Below the pieces are notes generated by a model. That model was given only the letters and a program-made list of their open reading frames with translations, was not told the DNA's origin and ran no database searches. From Bryum argenteum (Eukaryota > Streptophyta > Bryopsida > Bryales > Bryaceae), in the NCBI GenBank assembly GCA_037043015.1, contig CM073328.1:9025495-9089494 (forward strand): a DNA stretch of 64,000 nt, in the 5' to 3' direction. The translations under genes were made by a program, and so were the position numbers. This document shows positions 9,246 through 51,911 of the stretch, piece after piece. How positions within the stretch are numbered: the first letter of the stretch is position 1; every line of letters starts with the position of its first letter.

Positions 9246-9249
9246 TTGA

Positions 9250-22519: not shown

Positions 22520-22829
22520 TATTGAAGCTCAATAGAGGGTGAGAGAGAATACAAACATCAAAGCTTACACACAAGGTAAAGCAATGAATGCTTAAATGAG
22601 ATACCTACTCATTCCAAGCCCTTGCTTATATATCCATAGGTAGGCACATGGTGCTACAATCAATATGGGATAACCGAGAGGCCAAGTCCTCTCTTCTCTC
22701 TCTAAGGCTCTTAGGACCAGCCCTCTTCACACACTCTAAAGGACTAACACCTCGCTTCTATTCCTTACTAGAACATACTCTTATAACTATTAGTTGCTCT
22801 TCTAAACTACGAGCAACCTATCTCTAACA
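22520..22829 (-). repeat. Copia family A LTR (3' LTR of minus-strand element A1)
   Basis: Reads TATTGAAGCTCAATAG ... TCTCTAACA on the plus strand, that is TGTTAGAGA ... CTTCAATA on its own strand. It is followed at 22830 by CTCCCACTTTGCGAG, the complement of the polypurine tract. About 310 bp, like the other family A LTRs. Confidence 0.85.
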
Positions 22830-24222
22830 CTCCCACTTTGCGAGTAGTTTCCATCACATTGTAATCTTCTAGTGCCTCACCTTAGCAACTTCCTTCGGCA
22901 ACACACCAACCACTATCTCCTCTGTTGGGTTACACCACAAGTTCACCTCTCCATGCTTTAACACTCTTGTGGCCCTTTGGCAATGGAGCCAACCCTCATG
23001 TGCCATAGGTCATTAGAGATGCATACTCCTCTTGCATGGCCAACTCCCACTTGCTTGCATCCATACACTTTGCAAAGCATCACCCAAGCTCAAAGATTCA
23101 TCAAAACAAGCTACATTTGCATGATCTACTTTACTACGTGGTGGAAAAATGTGATTCAACCACCACTCACCAAGTGGCCTCTTCTCCCTTCTTAGGTACC
23201 TTGAGCCATTTGCACGCTGCCCTTCTCGTATCTCTTCATGTGGTGGTTGACTCTCTTGCACCACCTCCTCCTCTTGTGTCTCTTGTGACTCTTGCATTGC
23301 ATTTGGCTCCTCTCCAACTTTTGCCTCTTGTACAAAGCATGCTGAAATTGGAGGCGCATCCACCATAATCACCGTATGTGGCTCCAAACTCCCACTTGGA
23401 TGCATCTCCACATTTGCACCTCTACAACTGGCGCTTTTAGAAAACACCACATCACCACACTTGATTTGCATGTCATTCACCATGCTTTCCATGGCCTTGA
23501 TACTCTTCACATTCAAATGCCCATGGTTTCTATGCCAACCTCCCAAAGGGGCTGATTGTGGCATTTGGTGTGCCACATTGGCCATTTCATGCATGGAGAA
23601 GGGCATTTCATACAAACTCCCTACTCTATGCAATCTAGCAATCACCTTCCTATTGGCAGTCCTTACAATGCATGCATCATCATTAAACTCCACCTTCAAA
23701 CCTTTTAGAGCAAGCTTAGCTACGGAGATCAAGTTCCTCTTTAACTTGGGGATGTGGAGCACCTCCGTTATCTTGATCTTGTGCTTCACTCCCATCACTA
23801 TCACCTCTTCAACAATGGTGCCAACTCCAACCGCATGCACAACGCTATCATCTCCCAAGTGCACATTTCGTGGTGGTGATAATACCTCATATGTTTGGAA
23901 CGCTGCCCTATGCGGTGACATGTGCTTGGTGGCTCCCGAATCCATGATCCACTTGGCCATGGAGTTGTCATCTCCATCTCCATTAGCAAAGGCATGCTCC
24001 TCCCACATCTTGTCTTTTTTTGCAACAACGGGCGCTCATTGTCTTTAATAACGCATAATCCTCCTCATTGTCTTGGTTTCTTGCAACATTGGCACTCTCC
24101 TTCTCTTTCATCTTGTCTTGGAAGCAAAACCTTGCAATGTGGCCCGGCTTGCCACAATTGTAACACAACCTTGGCCCATTTGACATCCTCCCTTTGTTCT
24201 GGGCCGCCACCAACGCTGCCTC
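22830..24222 (-). pseudogene. Copia A1 internal region: zinc knuckle, protease, no integrase core or RT
   Basis: From 24213 downward: a CCHC knuckle (CYNCGKPGHIARFC), an aspartic protease with MDSGATKHMSPHRAAF, HVPKLKRN-type protease text and the start of the GAG-pre-integrase domain (NHGHLNVKSIKAM). The frame then jumps to the post-integrase linker (ANVEMHPSGSLEPH) and LGEWWLNHIFPP, so the DDE core is missing. Reverse transcriptase is reduced to a few codons before the polypurine tract. The protease frame (23013-24008, 331 codons) is separated from the knuckle by a frameshift. A2 interrupts the gag side at 24223. Confidence 0.8.
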
Positions 24223-24535
24223 TGTTAGAGATTAGGTTGCTCGTAGTTTATAAGAGCACCTAATAGTTATTAGAGTATGTTAGAGTAAGTAATAGAAACT
24301 AGGTCTTAGTCCTCTAGGGTGTGTGAAGAGGGCTGGTCCTAAAAGCCTTAGAGAGAGAGAAGAGAGGACTTAGCCTCTCGGTTATCCCATATTGTTTGTA
24401 GCACCATGTGCCTACCTATGGATACATAAGCAAGGGCTTCGAATGAGTATGTATCTCATTCAAGCATTCATTGCTCTACCTTGTGTGTAAGCTTTGATGT
24501 TTGTATTCTCTCTCACCCTCTATTGAGCTTCAATA
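24223..24535 (+). repeat. Copia family A 5' LTR (element A2)
   Basis: Starts TGTTAGAGATTAGG and ends CTTCAATA, immediately followed by the primer-binding site. It is head-to-head with minus-strand A1, so A2 probably inserted into the A1 gag region; the left flank is GCCTC. The partner flank is lost. Confidence 0.85.
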
Positions 24536-24549
24536 GGTTATGGGCCCAC
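24536..24549 (+). promoter_or_regulatory. Primer-binding site complementary to half of initiator tRNA-Met
   Basis: GGTTATGGGCCCAC directly abuts the LTR. It is the complement of GUGGGCCCAUAACC, the anticodon stem-loop side of eukaryotic initiator tRNA-Met, not of the tRNA 3' end (TGGTATCAGAGC type). This corresponds to the half-tRNA primer of Drosophila copia. The same site follows LTRs at 28195 and 43166, and in reverse at 46932-46945 and 48889-48902. Confidence 0.8.
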
Positions 24550-25740
24550 TACTCTTGTAGTGAGGTTGAGTTAGAATACATTTGGAGGCTTGGAGAGGTC
24601 AAGGAGGTGTTGCACACACTTAGAGGGCTGATTTGCACTCCTTGGAGCATTGGAGGTGCATTTGGAGCCATTTGGAGGTGTTTGCAACCATTTGAATGTG
24701 TTTTGAGGTGATTTGGAGCCATTTGGAGGTGTTTGCAACCATTTGGGGCTTTGGAGGTGCATTTGGAGCCATTTGGAGGTGTGTGCAACCACTTGGAGGT
24801 GCTAGCAACCATTTGGAGCTTTGGAGGTGTACTTGGAGCCATTTGGAGGTGTTTGGAGGTGATCTGAGGCATTTGGAGGCAATTGGAGCATTTTGGAGGT
24901 GTTTGGAGGTGATCTGAGGCATTTGGAGGCAATTGGAGCATTTTGGAGGTGTTTGGAGGTCTCTTGAAGGCATTGGAGGATTGTGAGCTTCCCTTGTTTT
25001 GGTTAGAGTGTTTCTAACACATGAAGGGGCTGATTTGAGCATTTTGTGCATGTGTGCACACAAGGGGCTGATTTGAGCATTTGTGGTGCATGTGTGCACA
25101 CAAGGGGCTGATTTGAGCATTTGTGGTGCAAGAGAGGTGTCTTGAGGCTCCTAAGTTGAGATTTGAGTGATTTGAGGTTCATGAAGCTTATTTGACATTG
25201 ATTGAGGGCTGATCTAGTCTAGGAGTGCACAAGTGCTCATTTGGAAGCATTGTAGGCTGATTTGAGTGCTTAGAGGTGCACAGTCACCTTGTGTGTGTAG
25301 TAGACATCTAGATCTAGTCTTTGGAGGTCAAATAGCTTGAGTTTGATCCAATTTGAGTGGGAGCAAGTGGATCTTGCTTGTTTGATTGATTTGTTGATCT
25401 AGAAGCTTCTTTGACATAGATTGAGGGCTGATCTAGTGTAGGGAGTACACAAGTGCTCATTTGGAGGCATTGAGGGCTGATTTGAGTGCTTTGAGGTGCA
25501 TATACACCTTGTGAGTGTGGGAGGAAGCCTAGATCTAGGATTTGGACATCAAAGAGCTTGAGTGTGATTTGATTTGAGTGGGAGCAAGTGGATCTTGCTT
25601 GTTTGAGTGTTGAGGGGCTTATTGTGCATTGTTTTGTGCACAAGTGTGTTTGTGGTGGTGATAAGAGGGCTGATTTTGAAGTGTTTGAAGCTAGATTTGA
25701 GTGCTTGGTGTTAGGGCCACGTTTGTGCTTTTTGGCCATG
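24550..25740 (+). repeat. Copia family A leader with TTTGGAGGTG minisatellite
   Basis: The untranslated leader between primer site and gag. From about 24640 to 24960 it is built from variants of CATTTGGAGGTG and TTTGCAACCATTTGGAGG, including a near-exact 54-bp tandem duplication (24847-24900 and 24901-24954). The rest carries many spaced copies of GGGCTGATTTGAG. The array is much shorter in the copy at 43.28-43.39 kb. Confidence 0.75.
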
Positions 25741-27788
25741 GTATTGGAGGGTCCATCTCCATTGTTAGGGTGCTTGAGAAGTTCAATGGCACCAACTTGC
25801 ACTTGTGGAAGTTCAAGATGAACATGGCACTCGATTCCATGGACTTTGGGAGATTGTTGAATTGGCACGGAGGAGGCTCCACCATCTCTTGCAAGTGACA
25901 AGGACAAGAAGGAGTACCAAAGGAGGGTGAGGAAGGCCGCCCTTGGCCCATTTTGCATCCTCAATTTGTTTGGATGCCCAACTTGCTCACATCAAGAGTT
26001 GCAAAGGACCAGCGGAAGCATGGAGGGTACTTTGTAACATCCATGAGACAAACTCCATTGGTCAACATACTCTTCTCTCTAAAGCAAGTTCTTCACAATC
26101 AAGATGGAAGAAGGGGCTGACTTGTTGGAGCACATCAACAACATCCTCCTCCTTGGTGATCAACTTGCTTGCTTGGATGTTTGCCCATGAAGGAGGAGGA
26201 TATTGTTATGACCTTGTTTTGATAGTCTCCCATCTTCATTTGAGCACTTGATAACGGCTTTAGACACCTTGACCCTTGCTGACCTTAAGATGGAGTTTGT
26301 GGTGTCAAGGTTGATGCCTGAAGTGTCCAAGAGGAAGGTGGGGGTGCTCAAATTGTTTGAGGAAGCGTTGGTGGCGGCTCAAAACAAATGGAGGATGCAA
26401 AATGGGCTCATTCGTGCTTCAATTGTGGCAAACCGGGCCACATTGCAAGATGTTTATTGCTTCCAAGACAAGAAGGAGAAAGAGAGTGCCAATGTTGCAA
26501 GAAACAAAGACAATGAGGAGGAGTATGCGTTTGTCAAGCGCCGTTGTTGCAAGCAAAGAGGAGATGTGGGAAGAGCATGCCTTTGCAAATGGAGATGGAG
26601 ATGACAACACCATTTGAATGTGGATCATGGATTTTGGAGCCATTTGGACATGTCACCATAGGGCAGCATTTCAAACATTTGAGGTAATATCACCACCATT
26701 TGCAATGCACTTGGGAGATGGTACCATTTGGAGCTTTGCGGTGGAGTTGGAGCCATTTTGAGGAGGTGAAGGTGATGGGCATTTGGCACAAAATCAACAT
26801 TTTAAAGGAGGTTTGGACATCCCAAAGTTAAAGAGAATTTTGTTTCCCTTGTTTTAGCAAAGCTTGCTCTTAATGGCTTAAAGGTGGAGTTTTGATGATG
26901 ATGCATGCATTGTGAGGGCTGCAAATAGGAAGGTGATTGCTAGATTGCCAAGAGAAGGGAGTTTATATTTGAGTGATTCAATGTTCATGAAGCTTATTTG
27001 ACATTGATTGAGGGCTGATCAAATGCCACAATCAGCGCATTTGGAGCTACGCCATAGGCCTTGGGCATTTGAATTTGAAGAATTTGAAGGTCCTTGAAAG
27101 GATGGTAAATGGCATGCAAATCAAGAATAGGACATCAAGGTCAAATAGCTCGTGATGTGGTGATTGCGGAGGAGGCCACTTGTGGAGATGCGTTTGTGGA
27201 TTTGCATCCAAGTGGGAGTTTGAGCCACTTGGTGATTGGGGTGGATGCAAGTGCTCATTTGGAGGCATTGAGGGCTGACAAGAGGCTTAAGTTGGAGAAG
27301 AGCCTAAAGGAGAAGCAAGATCTAGGAAATAGAAGGAAGAGGAGGATGTGGAGGTTGAATCACATGAAGAAGATTGATCTTGCTTGTTTGAGTGCACGAG
27401 GCCCATGGTATCCAATAAGGAGAGGAGGTCACTCCAAGAGTGGTGGTTAATCCATATTCTTCCACCATCTATTGTGGTTGGTGTGCAAATCTTATTTGTT
27501 TTTGATGATACTTTGAGTTTGGTGATGCTTTGAAAGTTCAATGGCACCAACTTCAACTTGTGGAAGTTCAAGACCAAACAAAACGATTCCATGGACTTGT
27601 GGGAGATTGTTGGAATTGGCTTTGTTGCCAGGCACCACCAGATAGTTAGAGGATGGAGAGGAGAGCTTGAGGGATTACCAAATGGAGGACATAGTGGGTG
27701 ATATATTGGTGGAGGCAAGGCGTTACACAAAGTGAGGCAAAGGAGATGGGAGCATGGAGGGACTGGAACATCCATGAGAGTGGGAGCT
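25741..27788 (+). pseudogene. Copia A2 internal region, mosaic and heavily broken
   Basis: Gag begins near 25738 (VRVLEKFNG-like text) but is shifted out of frame. Pieces of gag (26248-26604), knuckle, protease and post-integrase linker can be followed to 27775 in order. Short patches are replaced by foreign family A motifs: CATTTGG, a minisatellite word, interrupts protease sequence several times between 26630 and 26800, and leader sequence interrupts at 26965-27020. Compared with 44258-45253 the damage is patchwork, not simple point mutation. Integrase core and RT are absent. Confidence 0.7.
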
Positions 27789-27949
27789 TGTTAGAGATTA
27801 GGTTGCTCGTAGTTTATAAGAGCAATCAAGATGGAAGTTATTAGAGTATGTTAGAGTACATCAACAAGAGGCTAGGTCTTAGTCCTCTAGGGTGTGTGAA
27901 GAGGGCTGGTCTTAAAAGCCTTAGAGAGAGAGAAGAGAGGACTTAGCCT
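27789..27949 (+). repeat. Copia family A 3' LTR, truncated by B1
   Basis: Begins TGTTAGAGATTAGG and matches the first half of the LTR, with short patches (ATCAAGATGGAAG, ACATCAACAAG) not seen in other copies. It stops at 27949, where the B1 LTR begins. Confidence 0.75.
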
Positions 27950-31964: not shown

Positions 31965-32265
31965 TGTTGAGAAACATGTACCTATTGAAGTAGATAGTGT
32001 AAACTCCCATGGAGTGGCCTCCTCCGCAATCACCACATCACGAGGCTGAATTTAGTAGAACTTGAACTATGTTACTTAGTTAGTTCATCATACTTCCATT
32101 AGGTGTTGCTTGTAGTCAAAGGCAGCTGATTGTAGTGTGTGAGTTATCCCACATGGTTAGGAGATATGTACAAAGGAGGCTTGGCAATCTAGCAATCACT
32201 TGTATTCAGCCCTTGCATGGCTGAAATCATCCAATCCACCATCTAAGCCAAGAGCAAGCTTTCTA
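31965..32265 (+). repeat. Copia family B 3' LTR, mosaic
   Basis: Preceded by AAAGTGGGAG (polypurine tract). It begins TGTTGAGAAACATG and follows the 27950 LTR, but has an inserted patch near 32000-32045 that is the reverse complement of the family A linker (GTGGCCTCCTCCGCAATCAC). Its end blends base by base into minus-strand family A protease sequence near 32230-32300, so the right boundary cannot be fixed. Confidence 0.65.
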
Positions 32266-33320
32266 TGGATTCAATTTCTCAATGGGATGTGGAGAACCTC
32301 CTTTATGTTGATTTTGTGCTTTACTCCCATCACCTTCACCTCCTCAACAATGGTGCCAACTCCGACCGCATGCACAATACTACCATCTGTGCCTACCTGG
32401 TGTGATATTACCTCATATGTTTGAAATGCTGCCCTATGAGGTGACATGTGGGTGGCTCGAATCCATGATCCACTTGGTCATGGTGTTGTCATCTCCATCT
32501 CCATTTGCAAAGGCATGCTCTTCCCACATCTCCTCTTTGCTTGCAACAAATACAAACGCATACTTCCCTCATTGTCTTTGTTTCTTGCAACATTGTCTCT
32601 CCTTCTCCTTCTTGTCTTGGAAGCAATACCTTGCAATGTGGCCCGGTTTGCCACAATTGAAGCACGCCCTGGCCCATTTTGCATCCTCCGTTTGTTTTGA
32701 GCCACCAACAACGCTTCCTCACCACTTTGAGCACCCTTCTCCTTTCTCTTGACACTTCATGCATCAACCTTGAAACCACAAACTCCATTTTAAGGTCAGC
32801 AAGGTTGCAAGGTCTCTAAAGCCGTTATCAAGTGCTCAAATGAAGATGGGAGACTATCAAGCAAGGTCATAACAATATCCTCCTCTTTCATGGGCACATC
32901 CAAGCAAGCAAGTTGATCCGCAAGTGCCTTGATGTTGTTGATGTGCTCCAACAAGTCAGCCCCTTCCTCCATCTTGATTGTGAAGAACTTGCGCCTCAAG
33001 AAGAGTATGTTGGACAAGGTTTTTGTCTCATGGATGTTACAAAGTACCCTCCATGCTTCCGCTGGTCCTTTGCAACTCTTGATGTGAGCAAGTTGCGCAT
33101 CCACCAAATTGAGCCCAATCATGGACATGGCCTTCCTCACCCTCCTTTGGTACTCCTTCTTGTCCTTGTCACTTGCATGAGATGGTGGTGCCTCCTCCGT
33201 GCCTTCAACAATCTCCCACAAGTCCATGGAATCGAGTGCCAAGTTCATCTTGAACTTCCACAAGTTGAAGTTGGTGCCATTGAACTTCTCAAGCACCCTA
33301 ATACCCTCCAAGGAAGCCAT
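32266..33320 (-). pseudogene. Copia A3: gag, knuckle and protease start, minus strand
   Basis: Gag starts with ATG at 33320 (MASLEGIRVLEKFNG) and is open to 32796, with DLWEIVEGTEEAPPSHA and HINNIKALADQLACL. A frameshift precedes the knuckle region (32489-32788) and protease remnants to about 32270. The downstream half of the element is missing where it meets the B1 LTR. Confidence 0.75.
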
Positions 33321-34406
33321 GGCAAAGCACAAACGCTGCCCTAACCACACCAACCACTCAAATCTAGCTTCAAACACTCAAATCAGCCCTCTTGGAGTGT
33401 GCAACCACACTTGTGCACAAAACAATGCACAATAAGCCCCTCCAACACTCAAACAAGCAAGATCCACTTGCTCCCACTCAAATCAAATCACACTCAAGCT
33501 CTTTGACGTCCAAATCCTAGATCTAGGCTTCCTCCACACTCACAAGGTGTATATGCACCTCAAAGCACTCAAATCAGCCCTCAATGCCTCCAAATGAGCA
33601 CTTGTGCACTCCCTACACTAGATCAGCCCTCAATCTATGTCAAAGAAGCTTCTAGATCAACAAATCACTCAAACAAGCAAGATCCACTTGCTCCCACTCA
33701 AATTGGATCAAACTCAAGCTATTTGACCTCCAAATACTAGATCTAGATGTCTACTACACACACAAGGTGAATGTGCACCTCTAAGCACTCAAATCAGCCT
33801 ACAATGCTTCCAAATGAGCACTTGTGCACTCCCTACACTAGATCAGCCCTCAATCAATGTCAAATAAGCTTCATGAACCTCAAATCACTCAAATCTCAAC
33901 TTAGGAGCCTCAAGACACCTCTCTTGCACCACAAATGCTCAAATCAGCCCCTTGTGTGCACACATGCACCACAAATGCTCAAATCAGCCCCTTCATGTGT
34001 TAGAAACACTCTAACCAAAACAAGGGAAGCTCACAATCCTCCAATGCCTTCAAGAGACAATCCTCCAAAATGCCTTCTCCAGACCTCCAAACACCTCCAA
34101 AATGCTCCAATTGCCTCCAAATGCCTCGGATCACCTCCAAACACCTCCAAATGGCTCCAAACACCTCCAAGCTCCAAATGGTTGCAAGCACCTCCACCAC
34201 CTCCAAATGGCTCCAAACACCTCCAAATGCTCCAAATGGTTCCAAATGCCTCCTCATCACCTCCAAACACCTCCAAATGGTCCAAACACCTCCAAAGCTC
34301 CAAATGCACCTGGTTGCAAATCAGCCCTGAAGTGTGTGCAACACCTCCACCTCAAAAGCCTCCAAATGTATTCAAACTCAACCTCACTACAAATGGGCCC
34401 AAACCT
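33321..34406 (-). repeat. Copia family A leader (reverse complement) with CCTCCAAA minisatellite
   Basis: Leader of A3: AATCAGCCCT motifs, then ACCTCCAAATGGCTCCA units from about 34075 to 34310. The primer site near 34393 is altered (ATGGGCCCAAACC in place of GTGGGCCCATAACC). Confidence 0.7.
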
Positions 34407-34909
34407 ATTGAAGCTCAAATGGCTGAGAGAAATACAAACATCAAAGCAAACACATTCAAGCAATGAATGCTTGAATGAATCCATACTCCAAAGCCCTCCA
34501 AGTTTGCACCTACAATGCTCCAAAGGTCAAGCAAATGTTGCACACACTAAGGGCTGATGTGCACTCACTTGGAGCTTTGGAGGAGCCTTTCCAAGCCCAA
34601 AGGTGTTTTCAAACATTTCAAAGGTGTTTGGACTGATTTGAGGCATTTGGAGGCAATTGAGCATTTTGGAGGTCAATAGAGGTCTCTTGAAGGCATTACA
34701 AACATCAAAGCTTCCCTTGTCTTGGTTAGAGTGTTTCTAACACAAGAAGGTGCTGATTTTTGCATTGATGGCTATCAAATCCTTTTGTTGAGAGTGGTTT
34801 TGGGCTTAGGAGTGTTCTTTGTGATCTACTTGGTGCACTTGTGGAATTGAGGCTAATCTCCTTTAGGGTGCATGTGTCTCAAGGGGCTGATTTGAGCATT
34901 TGTGGTGCA
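34407..34909. other. Mosaic of family A LTR and leader pieces
   Basis: Starts as a minus-strand A LTR (TATTGAAGCTCAA) but is interrupted after a few bases and alternates LTR-like (AAGCAATGAATGCTTGAATG) and leader-like words in both orientations up to 34909. Not interpretable as one element. Confidence 0.55.
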
Positions 34910-35220
34910 TATTGAAGCTCAATAGAGGGTGAGAGAGAATACAAACATCAAAGCTTACACACAAGGTAGAGCAATGAATGCTTGAATGAGATGCATACTC
35001 ATTCCAAGCCCTTGCTTATATATCCATAGGTAGGCACATGGTGCTACAATCAATATGGGATAACCGAGAGGCTAAGGCCTCTCTCCTCTCTCTAAGGCTT
35101 TTAGGACCAGCCCTCTTCACACACCCTAGAGGACTAAGACCTAGCCTCTATTACTTACTCTAACGTACTCTAATAACTATTAGGTGCTCTTATAAACTAC
35201 GAGCAACCTAATCTCTAACA
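34910..35220 (-). repeat. Copia family A LTR (3' LTR of minus-strand element A4)
   Basis: TATTGAAGCTCAATAG ... ATCTCTAACA, 311 bp on the plus-strand reading, followed by ACTCTAACTTTACGAG, the degenerate complement of the polypurine tract. Confidence 0.85.
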
Positions 35221-37000
35221 ACTCTAACTTTACGAGTAGTTTTCTATTAGGTGCAATCCCATCTCCTTGTGCAACCACCTTGGTAAACGCCTTGGTCAAC
35301 ATATCACCCACTATGTCCTCCATTTTGGCAATCCCAGCTCTCCTCTCCATTCTCTAACTATCTTTGCGCATTTTGTCAACAAAGCCACCTCCCTATGTCC
35401 CCCATTGTTTTGTTACGTCAACTCCCTCTTGCTCCATCCTCTAACTATCTGCAAAGCATCACCAAACTCAAAGTATCATCAAAAACAAATAAGATTTTGT
35501 TTGGTCAACCTCAATAGATGGTGGAAGAATATGGTTTAACCACCACTCACCAAGTGACCTCCTCTCCCTTATTGGATACCATGGGCCTCGTGCACGCTGC
35601 CCCTCTTCAATCTTCCTCATGTGATTCAACCTCCACATCCTCCTCTTCCTTCTCTTTCGGCTCTTGCACTCCTTTAGGCTCTTCTCCAACTTAAGCCTCT
35701 TGTACAACGCACGCTGAAATTGGAGTTGCATCCACCCCAATCACCATAGTGTTTCCAAACTCCCACTTGGATGCATCTCCACATTCGCATCTCGACAAGT
35801 GGCCTCCTCCGCAATCACCACATCACGAGCCGCTGAATTTGATGTCCTATTCTTGATTTGCATGCCATTTACCATCCTTTCAAGGACCTTCAAATTCTTC
35901 ACATTCAAATGCCCAAGGCGCTATGGCGTAGCTCCAAAGGCGCTGATTGTGGCATTTGGTGTGCCACATTGGCATATATCATACATAGAGAAGGGCATTT
36001 GATACAAACTCCCTTCTCTTGGCAATCTAGCAATCACCTTCCTATTTGCAGCCCTCACAATGCATGCATTATCATCAAACTCCACCTTTAAGCCATTAAG
36101 AGCAAGCTTTGCTATGGATAACAAATTTCTCTTTAACTTTGGGATGTGGAGAACCTCCTTTATGTTGATTTTGTGCTTTACTCCCATCACCTTCACCTCC
36201 TCAACAATGGTGCCAACTCCGACCGCATGCACAATACTACCATCTCCCAAGCGCATTTCGTGGTGGTGATATTACCTCATATGTTTGAAATGCTGCCCTA
36301 TGAGGTGACATGTGCTTGGTGGCTCCCGAATCCATGATCCACTTGGCCATGGTGTTGTCATCTCCATCTCCATTTGCAAAGGCATGCTCTTCCCACATCT
36401 CCTCTTTGCTTGCAACAACGGCGCTTACAAACGCATACTCCTCCTCATTGTCTTTGTTTCTTGCAACATTGGCACTCTCCTTCTCTTTCATCTTGTCTTG
36501 GAAGCAATACCTTGCAATGTGGCCCGGTTTGCCACAATTGAAGCACGTCCTTGGCCCATTTTGCATCCTCCCTTTGTATTGAGCCGCCACCAAGGCTTCC
36601 TCACCACTTTGAGCACCCCTCTCCTTCCTCTTGGACACTTCATGCATCAACCTTGACACCACAAACTCCATCTTAAGGTCAGCAAGTTGCAAGGTCTCTA
36701 AAGCCGTTATCAAGTGCTCAAATGAAGATGGGAGACTATCAAGCAAGGTCATAAATATCCTCCTCCTTCATGGGCACATCCAAGCAAGCAAGTTGATCCG
36801 CAAGTGCCTTGATGTTGTTGATGTGCTCCAACAAGTCAGCCCCTTCTTCCATCTTGATTGTGAAGAACTTGCGCCTCAAGAAGAGGATGTTGGCCAAGCT
36901 TTTTGTCTCATGGATGTTGCAAAGTACCCTCCATGCTTCCGCTGGTCCTTTGCAACTCTTGATGTGAGCAAGTTGGGCATCCACCAAATTGAGCCCAATC
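35221..37000 (-). pseudogene. Copia A4 internal region: gag-knuckle-protease, integrase core and RT deleted
   Basis: From 36995 downward: gag (KSCKGPAEAWRVLCN), knuckle CFNCGKPGHIARYC, protease MDSGATKHMSPHRAAF, and the GAG-pre-integrase start. It then jumps, as in the copy at 44258-45253, to AARDVVIAEEATC-type linker text and the LGEWWLNHILPP segment near 35550. The RT is reduced to a tail of about 100 bases before the LTR. Several frameshifts. The 5' end is lost in the N gap. Confidence 0.8.
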
Positions 37001-37100: not shown

Positions 37101-39047
37101 TGATGTGTTTGGAGACCAAGAAGATCCTCAAGTGTCGTGATGTGGTGTTTGCGGAAGAGGCTACTTGTGGAGATGCAAATGTGGAGATGCATCCAAGTGG
37201 GAGTTTAGAGCCACCTACGGTGATTTTGGTGGATGCACCTCCAAATTTCAGCGCCCGTTCAAGAAGAAGAGCCCCAAGGTGTGCAAGGGCTAGAAGAAAT
37301 ACAAGAGGAGGAAGTGGTGGAAGAGAGGCAACCACGACATGAGGAGATTGGAGAGGGGCAGCGAAGATACCCAACAAGGGAGAGGAGGCCGCTTGGTGAG
37401 TGGTGGTTGAATCACATTCTTCCACCACCTAGTGAGGTAGAACATGCAAATGTTGCTTGTTTTGATGATCCTTTGAATGTGGGTGATGCTTTGCAAAGTG
37501 CGGATGCAATCAAGTGGGAGTTGGCCATGCAAGAGGAGTATGCATTTCTAATGGCCAATGGCACGTGGGAATTGGCCCCATTGCCAAAGGGCCGCAAAAG
37601 TGTTGGTTGTAAGTGGGTGTTTAGGACCAAGAGGGATGCACAAGGCAACGTGGTGCGCTACAAGGCACGTTTGGTGGCAAGGGGCTTCTCTCAAGTGGAG
37701 GGTGTTGATTTCCATGAGACCTTTGCGTCAGTGGCCAAGTTTACCACCATTCGATGCATGTTGGCGATTGGGGCAGCCATGGACATGGAGATTCACCAAA
37801 TGGATGTTAAGACGGCGTTCTTGAATGGTGAATTGGAGGAGGATATCTACATGGACCAGCCCCTTGGTTTTGTCAAGGAGGGCACCAAACACCTCGTTTG
37901 CAAGCTCAAGAAATCGTTGTATGGGCTAAAGCAATCACCAAGGGCGTGGTACCAAAGGATTGACATGTTTTTCACAAAAGAAGGCTTTTCTAGAAGCCAT
38001 GCGGATCACTCCTTGTATGTGAAGCAAACAAGAGAGTCGTTGTGGATTGTGATCATCTATGTAGATGATTTGATTATCTTGGCTAGTGATGATGCGGTTT
38101 TGAAGTGGTTGAAGGCCAAACTTGAGGAGGAGTTTGAAATGAGTGATCTTGGGCCTTTGGAGTTTTGCCTGGGTGTTGCGTTTGAGAGGAATCGCAGCGC
38201 ACGCACCATCACCATGAGCCAAAGCAAGTACATTAAAGAGGTGCTAAAGCGGTTCAAGATGGAGGAGTGCAAGCCTATTGGAACTCCTCTTGATGTGAAG
38301 GGGTCGTTGTTGAAGCTTTCGGATGAGGAGTTCAAGGAGGTTGAAGAAGAGATGAAGGCCATTCCATACAAGGCGGTGGTGGGGTCGTTGATGTATGCAA
38401 TGGTGGCCACAAGGGCTGACCTTGCATTTCCGGTAAGCATGGTGAGCCAATTCATGGCAAAGGCTGGTCCTCAACATTGGATGGCGGTAAAACGCATCTT
38501 GAGGTACTTAAAAGGCACCATTGACTACAAATTGTGCCTTGGCGGTAAGGACATTGATTGAGAGGATCTCACGATGCGGATTGGGCGGGTGATGTGAATG
38601 AGCGCCCGGTCCACTCACGGGGTATGTGTTCTTTGTAGGAGATGGTGCAATCTCGTGGAATTGCAAGAGGCAACCCACGATAGCGGTGTCTACTACGGAG
38701 GCGGAGTACATGGCAACAAGCCATTGCTTGAAGGAGGCACTCTGGCTGCGGCAACTATTGGAGGATGTTGGGTTGGTGCAAAAGGGAGCCACGAGGATCA
38801 TGTGCGACAACCAAGGGTGTATTGCACTTGCCAAGGACCCCAAGCACCACTCACGCGTCTGAAGCATTGATGATGCGCAACACCACTTCATTGGAGAGAA
38901 GTTGGAGGATGGAGAGGTGAGCTTGTGGTATTGTCCAACGGAGGAGATGGTGGCTGATGTGTTGACCAAGGCGCTTGCTAAGGTGAGGCACGAGAAGCTA
39001 ACAAAGGCGATGCGATTGCGAGGTGGTAACTACTCGCAAAGTGGGAG
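37101..39047 (+). pseudogene. Copia A5 pol: integrase tail, reverse transcriptase, RNase H
   Basis: After the end of integrase (KKILKCRDVVFAEEATC), the frame 37233-38561 (442 codons) holds a full copia reverse transcriptase: WVFRTKRDAQGNVVRYKARL, QMDVKTAFLNGELEE, SLYGLKQSPRAWY and the catalytic YVDD near residue 276. A stop at 38559-38561 with a frameshift separates it from RNase H (TTEAEYMATSHC, CDNQGCIALAKDPKHHS; 38626-38862) and the VADVLTKAL tail. This is the only family A RT in the window, so the copy is inactive although most RT motifs are intact. Confidence 0.85.
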
Positions 39048-39356
39048 TGTTGAAGATTAGATTGCTCGTAGTTATAGGAGCATCTAATAGTTATTAGAGT
39101 GTATTTATGTGAGGTATAGAGGCTAGGTCTTAGTCCTCTAGAGTGTGTGAAGAGGGCTGGTCCTAAGAGCCTTAGAGAGTGGAGAGAGGCCTTAGCCTCT
39201 CGGTTATCCCATATTGATTGTAGCACCATGTGCCTACCTATGGATATATAAGCAAGGGTTTGGAATGAGTATGTATCTCATTCAAGCATTCATTGCTCTA
39301 CTTCTTGTAAGCTTTGATTGTTTGTATTCCTTCTCTCTCTCTATTGAGCTTCAATA
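39048..39356 (+). repeat. Copia family A 3' LTR (element A5)
   Basis: Preceded by the polypurine tract GCAAAGTGGGAG. Starts TGTTGAAGATTAGA and ends GCTTCAATA; 309 bp. The pol frame runs through the tract (SQSGSVED) and stops within the LTR. Confidence 0.85.
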
Positions 39357-41843: not shown

Positions 41844-42089
41844 TATTGAGATTGAAGGGAAAAACTTTACTCAGATGGTATTGGATAACATCAGCCAAGC
41901 ATGGGCTGAACATAAGTAGGAGGAAGCCTCTCCTAGTGCTCACCTAACCATGTGGTATAACTAAACACTATGGGCTGCCTTTGACTACAAGCAACACTTA
42001 AAGGAGTCTAAGAACTAACTAAGTGTGTAGTTCTACTCGTAACGCTCCATGTACACTAATTTCTCCATTAGGTACATGTTTCCTCAACA
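41844..42089 (-). repeat. Copia family B LTR (3' LTR of minus-strand element B2)
   Basis: TATTGAGATTGAAGGG ... TTTCCTCAACA on the plus strand, 246 bp, followed by CTCCCACTTTGTGAG (polypurine complement) on the pol side. Confidence 0.85.
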
Positions 42090-42854
42090 CTCCCACTTTG
42101 TGAGTGGGCAAAGGCACAAAGGCCCATCTTCTCAATCAAGGCCAAGTGTTGTGGCTTTCCAAGCGCCTTGGTTAGCACATCAACAACCATAGCTTTGGTA
42201 GGCACATACTTGAGCTCAATCACTTGATCCTCCACTTGCTCACGAATAAAATGATGTTGCACATCAATATGCTTGGTTCGTGAGTGGTGTGTAGGATTCT
42301 TGGCTAAGGCAATAGCTCCTTGGTTGTCACACAAAACTTGTGTGCCGCCTTGTTGAACAAAGCCAACATCAGCCAAGAGTTGCCTCAACCAAATGGCTTC
42401 CTTGGTACATTGGCTCATGGCCATGTATTCAGCCTCCGTTGTAGAGAGTGCTATGGTGGGCTGCCTTTTGGAAGTCCATGAAATGGCACCCACTCCAAGC
42501 ATAAAAACGTAACCGGTTGTGGATCTCCTATCGCCTTCATCACCGGCCCAATCTGCATCACAATAACCACATAGCAACAAATTTGCACCTCCAAGTTGCA
42601 ACTCTAGCTTGAGTGTTCCTTGGAGGTACCTCATGACCCTCTTCACCGCTGCCCAATGCATTGGGCCATACTTGGACATGTGTTGACTCACAACACTCAC
42701 AGGAAAGGCCAAATCAGGCCTTGTAGCCACCATGGCATACATTAGGCACCCAACCGCAGCGTTGTATGGCACACTTGCCATTTCAGCCTTCACCTCTTCA
42801 AAATCAGCCTCCGTGAGCTTGGGCAACTTCACATGAGTGTCAAGTGGTGTACCT
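42068..42854 (-). CDS. Copia B2 RT end and RNase H, interrupted by A6
   Basis: An open frame of 254 codons: end of reverse transcriptase (MYAMVATRPDLAFPVSVVSQ), RNase H with DADWAGDEGDRRSTTGYV, TTEAEYMAMSQC and CDNQGAIALAKNPTHHS, and the tail VVDVLTKALGKPQHL. The frame runs through the polypurine tract into the LTR. At 42854 it is cut by the A6 insertion; the next 60 or so bases of RT are found at 46097-46160 on the other side. Apart from the insertion this part is undamaged. Confidence 0.85.
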
Positions 42855-43165
42855 TGTTAGAGATTAGGTTGCTCGTAGTTTAAAAGAGCAACTAATAGGT
42901 TTTAGAGTATGTTAGAGTAAGTAATAGAGGCTAGGTCTTAGTCCTCTAGGGTGTTTGAAGAGGGCTAGTCCTAAAAGCCTTAGAGAGACAAGAGAGGACT
43001 TAGCCTCTCGGTTATCCCATATTGTTTGTAGCACCATGTGCCTACCTATGGATACATAAGCAAGGGCTTGGAATGAGTATGTATCTCATTCAAGCATTCA
43101 TTGCTCTACCTTGTGTGTAAGCTTTGATGTTTGTATTCTCTCTCACCCTCTATTGAGCTTCAATA
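42855..43165 (+). repeat. A6 5' LTR
   Basis: TGTTAGAGATTAGG ... GCTTCAATA. The boundary is fixed by the target duplication, showing that the LTR really ends in TA, not the usual CA. Confidence 0.9.
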
Positions 43166-44257
43166 GGTTATGGGCCCACTACTCTTGTGGTGAGGTTGAG
43201 TTTGAATACATTTGGAGGCTTGGAGAGGTCAAGGAGGTGTTGCACACACTTAGAGGGCTGATTTGGACTCCTTGGAGCTTTGGAGGAGCATTTGGAGCCA
43301 TTTGGAGGTGTTTGCAACCATTTGGAGGTGTTTGGAGGTGATTTGAGGCATTTGGAGGCAATTGGAGCATTTTGGAGGTGTTTGGAGGTCTCTTGAAGGC
43401 ATTGGAGGATTGTGAGCTTCCCTTGTCTTGGTTAGAGTGTTTCTAACACAAGAAGGTGCTGATTTGCATTGATGGCTATCAAATCCTTTTGTTGAGAGTG
43501 GTTTTGAGCTTAGGAGTGTTCTTTGTGATCTACTTGAGTGCACTTGCGGAATTGAGGGCTAAATCTAGCTTTTAGGGTGCATGTGTGCACACAAGGGGCT
43601 GATTTGAGCATTTGTGGTGCAAGAGAGGTGTCTTGAGGCTCCTAAGTTGAGATTTGAGTGATTTGAGGTTCATGATGCTTATTTGACATTGATTGAGGGC
43701 TAATCTAGTGTAGGGATTGCACAAGTGCGCATTTGGAAGCATTGTGGGCTGATTTGAGTGCTTAGAGGTGCAAATTGACCTTGTGTGTGTAGTAGACATC
43801 TATATCTAGTATTTGGAGGTCAAATAGCTTGAGTTTGATCCAATTTGAGAGGGAGCAAGTGAATCTTGCTTGTTTTAGTGTAGGAGCAAGTGGATCTTGC
43901 TTGTTTGAGTAATTTGTTGATCTAGAAGCTTCTTTGACATAGATTGAGGGCTGATCTAGTGTAGGGAGTGCACAAGTGCTCATTTGGAGGCATTGAGGGC
44001 TGATTTGAGTGCTTTGAGGTGCATATACACCTTGTGGGTGTGGGGGAAGCCTAGATCTAGCATTTGGAGGTCAAAGAGCTTGAGTGTGATCTGATTTGAG
44101 TGGGAGCAAGTGGATTTTGCTTTTTTGAGTGTTGGAGTGGCTTATTGTGCATTGTTGTGTGCACAAGTGTGTTTGCACACTCCTAAGGGGCTGATTTGAG
44201 TGTTTAGGTGGTAGATTTGGGTTGTTGGTGTTGTAAGGGCAGCGCTTGTGTTTAGCC
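43166..44257 (+). repeat. A6 leader with half-tRNA primer site
   Basis: The primer site is at 43166-43179. A short minisatellite (TTTGGAGGTG units, about 43280-43390) and GGGCTGATTTGAG motifs follow. The array is shorter than in A2. Confidence 0.75.
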
Positions 44258-45253
44258 ATGGCTTCTTTTGAGGTTGAGAGTGTAAGGGTGCTTGAAAAGT
44301 TCAATGGCAACAACTTCCACCTTTGGAAGTTTAAGATGAAATTGGCGCTCTCCGGGATGGACTTGTGGGAGATTGTTGAAGGCACGGAGGAGGCACCACC
44401 TTCTCATGCAAGTGACAAGGACAAGGAGGACTATCAAAGGAGGGTGAGGAAGGCCATGTCCATGATTGGACTCAATTTGGTGGATGCCCAACTTGCTCAC
44501 ATCAGGAGTTGCAAAGGACCAGCGGAAGCAAGAAACAAAGACAATGAGGAGGAGTATGCGTTTGTAAGCGCCGTTGTTGCAAGCAAAGAGGAGATGTGGG
44601 AAGAGCATGCCTTTGCAAATGGAGATGGAGATGACAACACCATGGCCAAGTGGATCATGGATTCGGGAGCCACCAAGCACATGTCACCTCATAGGGCAGC
44701 ATTTCAAACATATGAGGTAATATCACCACCACGAAATGTGCACTTGGGAGATGGTAGTATTGTGCATGCGGTCGGAGTTGGCACCATTGTTGAGGAGGTG
44801 AAGGTGATGGGAGTAAAGCACAAAATCAACATAAAGGAGGTTCTCCACATCCCAAAGTTAAAGAGAAATTTGTTATCCATAGCAAAGCTTGCTCTTAATG
44901 GCTTAAAGGTGGAGTTTGATGATGATGCATGCATTGTGAGGGCTGCAAATAGGAAGGTGATTGCTAGATTGCCAAGAGAAGGGAGTTTATATCAAATGCC
45001 GTTCTCTATGTATGATATGGCCAATGTGGCACACCAAATGCCACAATCAGCGCCTTTGGAGCTACGCCATAGGCGCCTTGGGCATTTGAATGTGAAGAAT
45101 TTGAAGGTCCTTGAAAGGATGGTAAATGGCATGCAAATCAAGAATAGGACATCAAATTCAGCGGCTCGTGATGTAGTGATTGCGGAGGAGGCCACTTGTC
45201 GAGATGCGAATGTGGAGATGCATCCAAGTGGGAGTTTGGAGCCACTATGGTGA
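44258..45253 (+). CDS. A6 deleted Gag-protease protein
   Basis: ATG at 44258 (MASFEVESVRVLEKFNG), 331 codons. The Gag N-terminus (to SCKGPAEA) is fused in frame to RNKDNEEEYAF, removing the Gag C-terminal half and the CCHC knuckle. Then come protease MDSGATKHMSPHRAAF, HIPKLKRNLLSIAKLAL and the GAG-pre-integrase motif RRLGHLNVKNLK. A second in-frame junction (MQIKNRTSNSAARDVV) replaces the whole integrase core with the post-integrase linker. Both deletions keep the frame. Whether the product has a role is unknown. Confidence 0.8.
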   Translation: MASFEVESVRVLEKFNGNNFHLWKFKMKLALSGMDLWEIVEGTEEAPPSHASDKDKEDYQRRVRKAMSMIGLNLVDAQLAHIRSCKGPAEARNKDNEEEYAFVSAVVASKEEMWEEHAFANGDGDDNTMAKWIMDSGATKHMSPHRAAFQTYEVISPPRNVHLGDGSIVHAVGVGTIVEEVKVMGVKHKINIKEVLHIPKLKRNLLSIAKLALNGLKVEFDDDACIVRAANRKVIARLPREGSLYQMPFSMYDMANVAHQMPQSAPLELRHRRLGHLNVKNLKVLERMVNGMQIKNRTSNSAARDVVIAEEATCRDANVEMHPSGSLEPLW

Positions 45254-45785
45254 TTGGGGTGGATGCAACTCCAATTTCAGCGTGCGTTGTACAAGAGGCT
45301 CAAGTTGGAGAAAAGCCTAAAGGAGTGCAAGAGCCGAAAGAGACACAAGATGAGGATGTGGAGGTTGAATCACATGAAGAAGATTGAAGAGGGGCAGCGT
45401 GCACAAGGCCCATGGTATCCAATAAGGGAGAGGTGGTCACTTGGTGAGTGGTGGTTAAACCATATTCTTCCACCATCTATTGAGGTTGAACGTGCAAATC
45501 TTATTTGTTTTTGATGATACTTTGAGTTTGGGTGATGCTTTGCAAAGTGTGCATGCAAGCAAGTGGGAGTTGACCAAACAAGACAAGTAGACATCTAGTA
45601 TGGCCAATGGCACATGGGAATTGGCTTTGTTGCCAAATGCAAGCAGGAAAGTTAGAAGATGGAAAGGAGAGCTTGAGGTATTAGCAAATGGAGGACATGG
45701 TGGGAAATATGTGGACCAAGGCGTTTGCCAAGGTGAGGCACAAGGAGATGGGATTGCGAGGAGAAAACTACTCGCAAAGTGGGAG
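45254..45785 (+). pseudogene. A6 post-integrase linker and pol tail, RT deleted
   Basis: Linker text and LGEWWLNHILPP (45440-45475) continue in shifted frames to NGTWELALLPN near 45606. The sequence then jumps to the last pol codons (KVRHKEMGLRGENYSQ in the proper frame) before the polypurine tract. Reverse transcriptase and RNase H are deleted. The same arrangement recurs at 51177-51572. Confidence 0.75.
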
Positions 45786-46096
45786 TGTTAGAGATTAGGT
45801 TGCTCGTAGTTTAAAAGAGCAACTAATAGGTTTTAGAGTATGTTAGAGTAAGTAATAGAGGCTAGGTCTTAGTCCTCTAGGGTGTTTGAAGAGGGCTAGT
45901 CCTAAAAGCCTTAGAGAGACAAGAGAGGACTTAGCCTCTCGGTTATCCCATATTGTTTGTAGCACCATGTGCCTACCTATGGATACATAAGCAAGGGCTT
46001 GGAATGAGTATGTATCTCATTCAAGCATTCATTGCTCTACCTTGTGTGTAAGCTTTGATGTTTGTATTCTCTCTCACCCTCTATTGAGCTTCAATA
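45786..46096 (+). repeat. A6 3' LTR
   Basis: Matches the 5' LTR over its whole length as far as I can read. Right flank TACCT. Confidence 0.9.
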
Positions 46097-46945
46097 TACC
46101 TATGGCCTTACAATCCTCCATCTTGAACCTCTTGAGAATCTCTTCAATGTATTTGTATCCAAATGAGCAAATGACTCTAATTTGCTCACAATCACTCCAC
46201 AAAGCTCACAAGGGCTGAATTCAGCCCTAATGGACACTCAAACTTGCCCTAATCACTCACACAAGTGTAATCAGCTCTCTTGCAATCGCAAATGCAAGAA
46301 GCTCGCCTCACTCACTCAAAAGGGTGCAAATCAGCCCTCTCCAACTCACCAATGCACTCACTTCATCAAATCAGATCTAGATCTAGATCTAGATCTCTCT
46401 CCAACTCTCCAATGCTCAAAAGTTCCACATTCACTCACAAGAGCACAAATCAGCCCTTGATCAACTCAACAATGCACAAATGTGCAACATTCTCTCACAA
46501 GAGCTCAAATCAGCACTCTAATGAATGGCAAACTCCTCATTCAACTCAAAGATGCTCCCAATGCACTCTAAACACTCTCACAAGATTGCAATTGCCTCAA
46601 TTGCAATCCCTAATGCACCCAAGTGCACAATCAGCCCTAATTGGCTCCCAATGTGCAAATCTAAGCACAAACTCAATCAAAGAGTATGCAACCAGCCCTA
46701 ACAAGGTCTGATCTCTCTCAAAACACAACCTCACACTCAAATGCACTCAACAACTCCAACTTCAGCCAACAAACTCCAAAGAAAATGCACTTCAAGACTT
46801 CTCCTTTGGAAATGGACTTACACCAATTGGTTTGAAGGTGCACACATGTAAACAAGGCTGGTTTTGTCCCACAAGCTCCACGATCCTCTCCAAATGATCT
46901 GAATTTCTCCTTCAAGCGCACCACGACGTGCGTGGGCCCATAACC
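46097..46945 (-). mobile_element. B2 continuation: RT scrap, leader and primer site
   Basis: 46097-46160 is the B-family RT segment adjoining the A6 target (complement of AGGTTCAAGATGGAGGATTG). From about 46161 to 46931 is the B leader in reverse (AATCAGCCCT motifs, AGATCT repeat near 46376), and 46932-46945 is the primer site complement. The RT-to-leader junction shows that B2 lacks gag, protease, integrase and most of RT. Confidence 0.8.
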
Positions 46946-47189: not shown

Positions 47190-47411
47190 ACTTAGATGGT
47201 ATTGGATAACATCAGCCATGCATGGGCTGAATACAAGTAGGAGGAAGCCTCCTCTACTTGTATCCTAACCATGTGGGATAACTCACCACTATGGGCTGCC
47301 TTTGACTACAAGCAACACCTAATGGAGTATACGAACTAACTAAGTGTGTAGTTCTACTCCTAACATTCCATGTACACTATCTACTCCAATAGGTACATGT
47401 TTCTCAACAGT
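47190..47411 (-). repeat. Second, partial family B LTR in tandem
   Basis: Begins ACTTAGATGGTATTGG, lacking about 25 terminal bases, and runs to TTTCTCAACA, with that end motif repeated at 47411-47420. A tandem LTR arrangement, probably from recombination. Confidence 0.75.
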
Positions 47412-47882: not shown

Positions 47883-48252
47883 ATTGCTCGTAGTTTATAA
47901 GAGCAATTAGTACTTGTTAGAGTATATATATATGGAAGCTTATACTTAGTATTCTAGAGTGTGGAAAGGGGCTGGTCCTAATAGCAATAGTGAGGGGAGA
48001 GAAGACCAGCCCACTTTGTTGACTTTAGGAGGCGAGTAAGTGGTGGCAAAGACTAAAGGGGCACACATGTGAACCATGTGGGCCAAAGGCACTTGGAAAA
48101 TGTACAAGAAGGCACTAGGAAGGTGCCAATAAGGAAGTATAAGTAAAGGCCTTTGCTAGAAGGCAACATCTCATTCCAAGCATTCATTGCTCTACTTGTT
48201 TGTAAGCTTTGAGTATGTTGTATTCTCTCTCTTCCTCTATTGAATCTCAATA
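47870..48252 (+). repeat. Variant copia LTR related to family A, 383 bp
   Basis: Starts TGTTGAAGAATAGATTGC and ends AATCTCAATA. The outer parts match family A but the middle (GGAAAGGGGCTGGTCC to GGAAGTATAAGTAAAGG) is different and longer. It may define a separate subfamily with another promoter. Confidence 0.7.
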
Positions 48253-49215: not shown

Positions 49216-49218
49216 CCC

Positions 49219-50952
49219 ATGGAGGAGGAGCCACGTGACCAGCCCTTGGAAGAGCCTAGATATCCTACAAGGACTCGCAAGCCACTTGGGGATTGGTGGA
49301 TGAATCATATTCTTCCTCCACCACATGAAGATCAAGCAAATGTGGCATTTCTTGGAGATCCATCGACACTTGGAGAGGTGCTGAATTGTGAAGATGCAAG
49401 CAAGTGGGAGGTGGCTATGGAAGAAGAGTACAAGGCCCTCATTAACAAGGGCACTTGGGAGCTTGCACCGCTTCCTCCCAATAGATCAACTGTGGGCTGT
49501 AAGTGGGTTTTCTCCACCAAAAGGGATGCTTTGGGGCATGTGGTGAGGTACAAAGCAAGGCTGGTTGCTCGGGGGTTCACCCAAGTGGAGGGGGTGGATT
49601 TCAATGAGACATTTTCCCCCGTTGCCAAATTCAACACAATTCGGTGTATTGTAAGCATTGGGGCAGCCATGGACCTTGAGATGCACAACATGGATGTGAA
49701 GACCGCCTTTCTCAACCCCAAGTTGGAGGAGGTGATCTACATGGACCAGCCCCAAGGATTTGTGCAAGAAGGCAAGGAGCATCTCAAGTGCAAGTTGAAG
49801 AAGGCACTTCCCGGTTTGAAGCAATCCGGGAGGGCATGGTATCTAGATAGTGATGCCATGTTTGTGAGAAAGGGCTTCAAAAGAGGCCACGCTGATCACT
49901 CTTTGTACATCATGCAAAGTAGTGAATTCTTGGTGATTGTAATCTTGTATGTGGATGATTTGATCCTCCTTGCAAGTAGCATGACCAAGATGTTGGAGGT
50001 GAAGACTATGCTCAAGGAGGAGTATGAGATGACGGATTTGGGAGAGCTAAGCTATTGCCTTGGAGTGGAGTTCAAGAGGGATAGGGCTGCCCGCACCATC
50101 ACCATGAGTCAACACAAGTACCTTGAGGAGATTCTCAAGAGGTTCAAGATGGAGGATTGCAAGGCCATAGGTACACCACTTGACACTCATGTGAAGTTGC
50201 CCAAGCTCACGGAGGCTGATTTTGAAGAGGTGAAGGCTGAAATGGCAAGTGTGCCATACAACGCTGCGGTTGGGTGCCTCATGTATGCCATGGTGGCTAC
50301 AAGGCCTGATTTGGCCTTTCCTGTGAGTGTTGTGAGTCAACACATGTCCAAGTATGGCCCAATGCATTGGGCGGTGAAGAGGGTGATGAGGTACCTCCAA
50401 GGTACACTTAAGCTAGAGTTGCAACTTGGAGGTGCAAATTTGTTGCTACGTGGCTATTGTGATGCAGATTGGGCCGGTGATGAAGGAGATTGGAGATCCA
50501 CCACCGGTTATGTTTTTATGCTTGGAGTGGGTGCCATTTCGTGGAACTCTAAGAGGCAACCCACCATAGCACTCTCTACAACGGAGGCTGAATACATGGC
50601 CATGAGCCAATGTACCAAGGAAGCCATTTGGTTGAGGCAACTCTTGGCTGATGTTGGCTTTGTTCAACAAGGCGGCACACAAGTTTTGTGTGACAACCAA
50701 GGAGCTATTGCCTTAGCCAAGAATCCTACACACCACTCACGAACCAAGCATATTGATGTGCAACATCATTTTATTCGTGAGCAAGTGGAGGATCAAGTGA
50801 TTGAGCTCAAGTATGTGCCTACCAAAGCTATGGTTGTTGATGTGCTAACCAAGGCGCTTGGAAAGCCACAACACTTGGCCTTGATTGAGAAGATGGGCCT
50901 TTGTGCCTTTGCCCACTCACAAAGTGGGAGTGTTGAGGAAACATGTACCTAA
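49219..50952 (+). CDS. Copia B3 reverse transcriptase-RNase H, open frame
   Basis: 577 codons without a stop: linker RYPTRTRKPLGDWWMNHILPP, reverse transcriptase (WVFSTKRDALGHVVRYKARL, NMDVKTAFLNPKLEE, YVDD at residues 244-247) and RNase H (DADWAGDEGDWRSTTGYV from about 415, TTEAEYMAMSQC, CDNQGAIALAKN), ending VDVLTKALGKPQHL and running into the LTR. LPGLKQSGRAWY replaces the usual LYGLKQ, a possible weakening. Gag, protease and integrase are absent. It begins at the neighbouring LTR with no proper start of its own, so expression is doubtful. Confidence 0.85.
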   Translation: MEEEPRDQPLEEPRYPTRTRKPLGDWWMNHILPPPHEDQANVAFLGDPSTLGEVLNCEDASKWEVAMEEEYKALINKGTWELAPLPPNRSTVGCKWVFSTKRDALGHVVRYKARLVARGFTQVEGVDFNETFSPVAKFNTIRCIVSIGAAMDLEMHNMDVKTAFLNPKLEEVIYMDQPQGFVQEGKEHLKCKLKKALPGLKQSGRAWYLDSDAMFVRKGFKRGHADHSLYIMQSSEFLVIVILYVDDLILLASSMTKMLEVKTMLKEEYEMTDLGELSYCLGVEFKRDRAARTITMSQHKYLEEILKRFKMEDCKAIGTPLDTHVKLPKLTEADFEEVKAEMASVPYNAAVGCLMYAMVATRPDLAFPVSVVSQHMSKYGPMHWAVKRVMRYLQGTLKLELQLGGANLLLRGYCDADWAGDEGDWRSTTGYVFMLGVGAISWNSKRQPTIALSTTEAEYMAMSQCTKEAIWLRQLLADVGFVQQGGTQVLCDNQGAIALAKNPTHHSRTKHIDVQHHFIREQVEDQVIELKYVPTKAMVVDVLTKALGKPQHLALIEKMGLCAFAHSQSGSVEETCT

Positions 50953-51176
50953 TGGAGAAATTAGTGTACATGGAGCGTTACGAGTAGAACTACACACTTA
51001 GTTAGTTCTTAGACTCCTTTAAGTTTTGCTTGTAGTCAAAGGCAGCCCATAGTGTTTAGTTATACCACATGGTTAGGTGAGCACTAGGAGAGGCTTCCTC
51101 CTACTTATGTTCAGCCCATGCTTGGCTGATGTTATCCAATACCATCTAAGTAAAGTTTTTCCCTTCAATCTCAATA
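50931..51176 (+). repeat. Copia family B 3' LTR (element B3)
   Basis: Directly after CACAAAGTGGGAG; TGTTGAGGAAACATG ... CAATCTCAATA, 246 bp. The pol frame overlaps its first 22 bases. Confidence 0.85.
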
Positions 51177-51572
51177 AGGGGCAGCGTGCACAAGGCCCAT
51201 GGTATCCAATAAGAGAGAGGTGGTCACTTGGTGAGTGGTGGTTAAACCATATTCTTCCACCATCTATTGAGGTGGAACGTGCAAATTTTATTTGTTTTTG
51301 ATGATACTTTGAGTTTGGGTGATGCTTTGCAAAGTGTGCATGCAAGCAAGTGGGAGTTGATCAAACAAGACAAGTAGACATCTAGTATGGCCAATGGCAC
51401 ATGTGAAATGGCTTTGTTGCCAAATGCGAGCAAGATAGTTAGAGGATGGAGAGGAGAGCTTGAGGTATTACGAAATGGAGGACATAGTGGGTGATATGTT
51501 GACCAAGGCGTTTACCAAGGTGAGGCACAAGGAGATGGGATTGCGAGGAGAAAACTACTCGCAAAGTGGGAG
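51177..51572 (+). pseudogene. Copia family A linker and pol tail with the A6-type RT deletion
   Basis: Nearly the same as 45385-45785: WWLNHILPPSIEVER-type text, then the jump to the pol tail and polypurine tract. It shares the deletion junction with A6, so both descend from one deleted progenitor. Confidence 0.75.
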
Positions 51573-51911
51573 TGTTAGAGATTAGGTTGCTCGTAGTTTA
51601 TAAGAGCAACTAATAGTTATTAGAGGATGTTAGAGTAAGTAATAGAGGCTAGGTCTTAGTGCTCTAGGGTGTGTGAAGAAGGCTGGTCTTAAAAGCCTTA
51701 GAGAGAGAAGAGAGGACTTAGCCTCTCGTTTATCCCATATTGATTGTAGCACCATGTGCCTACCTATGGATACATAAGCAAGGGCTTGGAATGAGAATGT
51801 ATCTCATTCAAGCATTCATTGCTCTACCTTGTGTGTAAGCTTTGATGTTTGTACTCTCTCTCTCACCGTCTATTGAGCTTCAATACTCTCACCCTCTATT
51901 GAGCTTCAATA
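51573..51911 (+). repeat. Copia family A LTR with 26-bp terminal duplication
   Basis: The LTR is 51573-51885 (TGTTAGAG ... CTTCAATA). Its last 26 bases (CTCTCACCCTCTATTGAG ...) are repeated at 51886-51911. Confidence 0.8.

Follow-up and report, generated by a model that had tools for sequence, protein, structure and literature searches.

The window, a 64,000-nucleotide stretch of Bryum argenteum DNA, holds LTR elements of two types, A and B. The A-type element A6 stands inside a B-type copy. Its parts are as follows.

42855..46096: A6 element, 3242 bp
42850..42854, + strand: left copy of the TSD TACCT
42855..43165, + strand: 5' LTR, TG...TA, identical to the 3' LTR
43166..43179, + strand: PBS of the half-tRNA type, 14/14 complementary to nt 26-39 of plant initiator tRNA-Met
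43180..44257, + strand: leader with 10-bp GGAGG-rich repeats and a 234-bp direct repeat
44258..45253, + strand: 331-codon ORF with the Gag N-terminus, protease (Pol_BBD) and partial pre-integrase
45776..45785, + strand: PPT, AAAGTGGGAG
45786..46096, + strand: 3' LTR
46097..46101, + strand: right copy of the TSD TACCT

The two LTRs are identical at 311/311 positions. The element has an exact TACCT on both sides, with a chance of about 1/1024 for one 5-mer. Matching LTRs and a perfect target duplication had been claimed for this site, and both are indeed present. Between the A6 LTR and each of the seven other A-type LTRs of the window, 2.9-12.9% of ungapped columns differ, so the identity of the A6 pair is not merely slow LTR change. 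A recent insertion, as in the original prediction, is well supported by these LTR sequences. Zero differences over 311 bp give a 95% upper bound of 0.0096 on LTR divergence. At LTR substitution rates of 1.3e-8, 7e-9 and 2.2e-9 per site per year, which may not be those of the host, A6 would be younger than 0.37, 0.69 or 2.2 million years, respectively.

The B-type copy entered by A6 lies on the opposite strand, in two pieces.

41844..42854, - strand: host B element, RT C-terminus to 3' LTR (LTR at 41844-42089)
46097..46156, - strand: host B element, 60 bp of RT beyond A6

The insertion point lies inside the host RT segment that matches B7, a second B-type copy. With A6 excised and one TSD copy kept, the flanks are 97.7% identical to B7 (50095-51176) over 1066 bp, with one gap opening. 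The RT/RNase H frame of the joined flanks is open across the former insertion point. Removal of A6 therefore restores a B-family RT, as had been proposed, but the host is no ordinary element. In it, a 5' LTR with leader occupies 47189 down to 46157 and is joined directly to the 60-bp RT piece, at the junction 46156/46157. The host 5' and 3' LTRs are 11.1% different, and the 3' LTR is 0.8% from the B7 LTR. No TSD was seen by eye in the flanks of the host copy. Recombination or a mis-join probably produced this copy. Directly upstream of the full B LTR, a 220-bp partial B LTR stands in the same orientation (47190-47409). Within 48168-49219, the 5' half of an A-type element, with 97% identity to A6, runs from 49215 down to 48253; this half adjoins a plus-strand A-like LTR end at 48252 and the B7 RT ORF at 49219.

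The A6 PBS directly abuts the 5' LTR. It is complementary to nt 26-39 of the plant initiator tRNA-Met, and its predicted partner is a tRNA 5' half produced by a cut in the anticodon stem. The B-type copy B1 carries the same 14 bases (14/14), and the half-tRNA(iMet) PBS is common to the A and B families. A leader of about 1.1 kb then precedes the 331-codon ORF. We scanned this ORF, taken as 44246-45253 (335 aa), against Pfam with curated cut-offs and a listing to E 0.01. The cut-offs were exceeded only by Pol_BBD and by Retrotran_gag_2 in its N-terminal part (profile positions 1-65 of 172); DUF4219, gag_pre-integrs and Retrotran_gag_3 were below them. There was no match to rve, RVT_2 or zf-CCHC in the ORF at E 0.01. 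The zinc-knuckle pattern CX2CX4HX4C was absent from the scanned A6 stretch and from the copy c3, and was found in c4, c5 and c2. The Gag of A6 ends after 91 aa and is fused to the protease. The Pfam and pattern scans thus agree with the earlier claim that A6 has no integrase core, RT, RNase H or Gag zinc knuckle, except that short pieces of RT (N-terminus) and RNase H (C-terminus) persist.

The original prediction named two internal junctions. There are three; J3, which removes RT and RNase H, was overlooked.

44528..44530, + strand: J1, gag deletion, 468 bp relative to c5, 472 relative to c4 and 479 relative to c3
45156..45166 (approximate), + strand: J2, loss of about 240 codons relative to B1, from the integrase core to the linker
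45638..45648 (approximate), + strand: J3, loss of about 1.3 kb of the RT-RNase H core relative to A8

The copies that bear on these junctions are the following.

34910..37000, - strand: c4, sister with J2 and J3 and without J1, cut by the N gap
22520..24222, - strand: c2, older sister sharing J3, with a J2 about 22 bp different
51177..51885, + strand: c7, 3' part of a sister copy, sharing J3
24223..27949, + strand: c3, patchy sister with mismatches at J2 and without J1
32013..34488, - strand: c5, patchy sister without J1, with a short displaced J2 fragment
37101..39356, + strand: A8, RT-bearing relative with an A-type LTR at 39048-39356
49219..51176, + strand: B7, B-type RT ORF (577 aa) with a B LTR, 5' half missing

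J1 is found in A6 only. The segment that it removes is kept in 3/3 other spanning copies of the window (c3, c4 and c5), and c2 retains the zinc-knuckle side of it; c4 and c5 keep more of Gag than A6 does. J1 is therefore private to A6 among the window copies. Its size was taken from alignment coordinates, and the spread of 468/472/479 comes from indels in c3, c4 and c5. The ends of J1 share the 3 bp GCA, and the A6 frame is open through it.

At J2 the pre-integrase domain is followed directly by the post-integrase linker. It is present at the same base in c4, within a stretch that differs from A6 at 10/804 positions. A similar junction with mismatches is seen in c3, and one with a 2-bp gap in the short displaced fragment of c5. 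The J2 of c2 is about 22 bp off, so integrase loss may have occurred twice. J3 spans early RT to late RNase H and is common to c4, c7 and c2; c3 is patchy there. Undeleted counterparts exist: A8 and B7 run across J3, and B1 has the integrase that is missing at J2. Because J2 and J3 recur in other window copies, both are older than the A6 insertion. The three deletions differ in age. The loss of pol is a trait of the subfamily, which the original prediction overlooked, and A6 belongs to a pol-less gag-protease subfamily.

These copies are not equally good witnesses. We downgraded c3 as a full witness for its patchiness, and both c3 and c5 are weak witnesses. In the c3 region 25900-27780, 803/1871 11-mers are absent from all compared copies, and 75 match only the A-type leader, in runs; the term patchy rests mainly on these leader runs and on reading of the alignment. 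At 25900-27780 and 32001-32260, coding or LTR sequence contains short fragments from the leader or elsewhere in A elements. These stretches are either assembly noise near the 100-N gap or real template switching. Divergence between A6 (44528-46096) and c4 (34910-36464) is also uneven, with 10/804 differences from gag to linker, 66/430 from RT relic to PPT and 13/311 in the LTR. This pattern suggests a mosaic or patched copy, and template switching and assembly patches both fit it.

Several other arrangements were seen in the window. B1 (27950-32247) is B-type with LTR sequence at both ends, and its start lies inside the c3 3' LTR. It has an 868-aa gag-protease-integrase ORF (29305-31911) and no RT/RNase H core. 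Its Gag knuckle region had no zf-CCHC match, and the usual H is missing by eye. At 51176/51177 the B7 LTR end coincides with the mid-element start of the A-type c7, an arrangement that would result from insertion of a B element within an A copy. Two ORFs at 56673-57698 match RVT_1 and are probably a non-LTR element. Long ORFs at 9119-10432 (437 aa) and 52524-54341 (605 aa) had no Pfam match at E 0.01. Rfam (gathering thresholds) and ARAGORN gave 0 matches each on the window. Pattern searches of viral_contigs gave no match for the B7 RT, and 7 for the A6 ORF with no confirmed relative among them.

We then compared A6 with the other copies by codon position. Against c2, the protease/pre-integrase stretch has 20/15/43 differences at codon positions 1/2/3 (one-sided binomial p 6e-5), with a dN/dS of 0.34 over 219 codons. 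This excess shows apparent purifying selection on the protease frame between A6 and c2, and selection before the deletions could also leave such a trace. The pol relic, counted with the A8 frame split at the linker frameshift, gave 25/16/28 (p 0.13), and its contrast with the protease stretch was below significance (Fisher, p 0.098). Constraint on the relic seems unclear, and the contrast with the protease frame is only suggestive. Counts in the Gag N-terminal part agree with constraint (6/4/15 against c5, p 0.006; 0/5/10 against c1, p 0.009). In the protease stretch, A6 and c4 differ at only 5 sites (1/1/3, p 0.21). Total dN/dS values for c4 (0.67, 261 codons), c3 (0.73, 294), c5 (0.49, 199) and c1 (0.11, 51) carry no weight, because c4 is partly frame-shifted, c3 and c5 are patchy and c1 is short.

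We suggest that A6 inserted recently, moved by the proteins of a related element, and that it comes from a non-autonomous Ty1/copia subfamily in which the sequences at J2 and J3 were already lost. We put the probability of this reading at about 0.87. Since J2 and J3 predate A6, its RNA could not encode integrase or RT, and both must have been supplied in trans. The subfamily would have kept its LTRs, half-tRNA PBS, leader, PPT and gag-protease frame while the integrase core and the RT/RNase H core were gone. In this scenario, A6 RNA would be transcribed from its own LTR, presumably packaged, and then reverse-transcribed and integrated by a relative's proteins. Among the window elements, an A8-type or B-type element would be the best fit for the helper. 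A8, with its RT ORF and an LTR 11.0% from that of A6, may show what a same-family helper looks like. The B elements are a second candidate; they share the PBS and the LTR end CAATA with A6 and have a PPT similar to its own. No intact helper is present in the window: A8 begins at the N gap and its linker is frameshifted, and B7 is without its 5' half.

The claim that A6 was moved by proteins of another element thus stands for RT and integrase, for which J2 and J3 are shared, but not for a loss of Gag and its zinc knuckle before the jump, since J1 is private. J1 has no second witness, so the zinc knuckle may or may not have been absent when A6 jumped. The subfamily may have moved with an intact gag, and A6 may have lost the J1 segment only after insertion; RT and integrase would then be borrowed, and Gag not necessarily. 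The deletion is missing from all three other spanning copies, and the shared GCA fits an end-joining deletion. However, the A6 ORF is open across J1 into the protease, a one-in-three outcome for a random deletion, and template switching during reverse transcription would give the same scar. A J1 deletion after insertion fits A6 equally well as a loss before the jump, and we give this version close to an even chance, on the lower side.

A wider variant is unlikely. It holds that the A and B families form a mutual-aid network in which no window copy is complete: the A copies would bring gag-protease, B1-type copies gag-protease-integrase, and A8- and B7-type copies RT. All would use one half-tRNA priming system, and the pol-less gag-protease frame would be under selection, feeding shared particles.

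We consider it improbable that the A6 joins, or the identity of its LTRs, arose in assembly from collapsed or mis-joined copies. Parts of the assembly are unreliable, as seen from the 100-N gap at 37001-37100 and the patchy sequence at about 26-32 kb, and the uneven A6-c4 divergence could be read in the same way. However, the A6 area looks clean, with the target RT frame open on both sides, an exact TSD and a B7 ORF open over 577 aa. J3 is also present in c7 and c2, both of which differ in sequence from A6. The weakest reading, that A6 was complete and autonomous when it inserted and later lost its integrase and RT/RNase H in place, was rejected as highly improbable: such deletions are common in plant LTR elements, and J1 alone would fit one, being private to A6, but J2 and J3 occur in other window copies and thus predate the insertion.

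A6 was also compared with known element classes. Like Ty1/copia elements, A6 has an LTR pair, a 5-bp TSD, a PBS and a PPT, with copia-type gag and protease and the order protease-integrase-RT; what remains of the pre-integrase precedes what remains of the RT N-terminus. It lacks the integrase core, RT and RNase H of an autonomous element. LARDs have a long non-coding interior of more than about 4 kb, and TRIMs are very short with no coding capacity; A6, at 3242 bp with a 331-codon ORF, is neither. It has the LTRs of a TR-GAG and no pol enzymes beyond protease, but not the single ORF with full Gag. BARE-2 lacks Gag and keeps pol, and the A6 subfamily is the reverse of this. Like A6, BARE-2 is a defective element using proteins from a related family with compatible cis signals.

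BARE-2 and BARE-1, its helper, are named as a parasite pair in PMC8704663. The same paper describes two non-autonomous LTR elements, one of them a TR-GAG, that transposed in ddm1 Arabidopsis. As described there, a TR-GAG resembles A6 in having LTRs and a gag-bearing ORF without RT, RNase H or integrase core, and in being helper-mobilised (PMC8704663). A6 differs in its retained protease and part of the pre-integrase, its Gag cut after 91 aa and its half-tRNA PBS. We suggest that A6 works like TR-GAG- and BARE-2-type non-autonomous elements, although it is not strictly a TR-GAG. According to PMC2410132, the non-autonomous Athila families of Arabidopsis likewise have pol-less copies with ORFs under purifying selection. 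However, Athila is Ty3/gypsy (PMC6317226), with gag or env ORFs, whereas the A6 subfamily is Ty1/copia with gag-protease. In the latter paper, a survey of plant elements, a half tRNA-Met PBS is given for Osser, Bryco and part of Gymco-II (PMC6317226), and A6 resembles these in PBS type.

A6 leaves the general view of retrotransposons unchanged. It adds a clearly laid-out case to the known helper-dependent plant LTR elements, near the TR-GAGs. In this one young insertion, shared and private deletions can be separated, which gives direct sequence evidence that copies without integrase and RT kept amplifying. The half-tRNA PBS is shared with the RT-bearing B family, and helper specificity is therefore testable in this genome.
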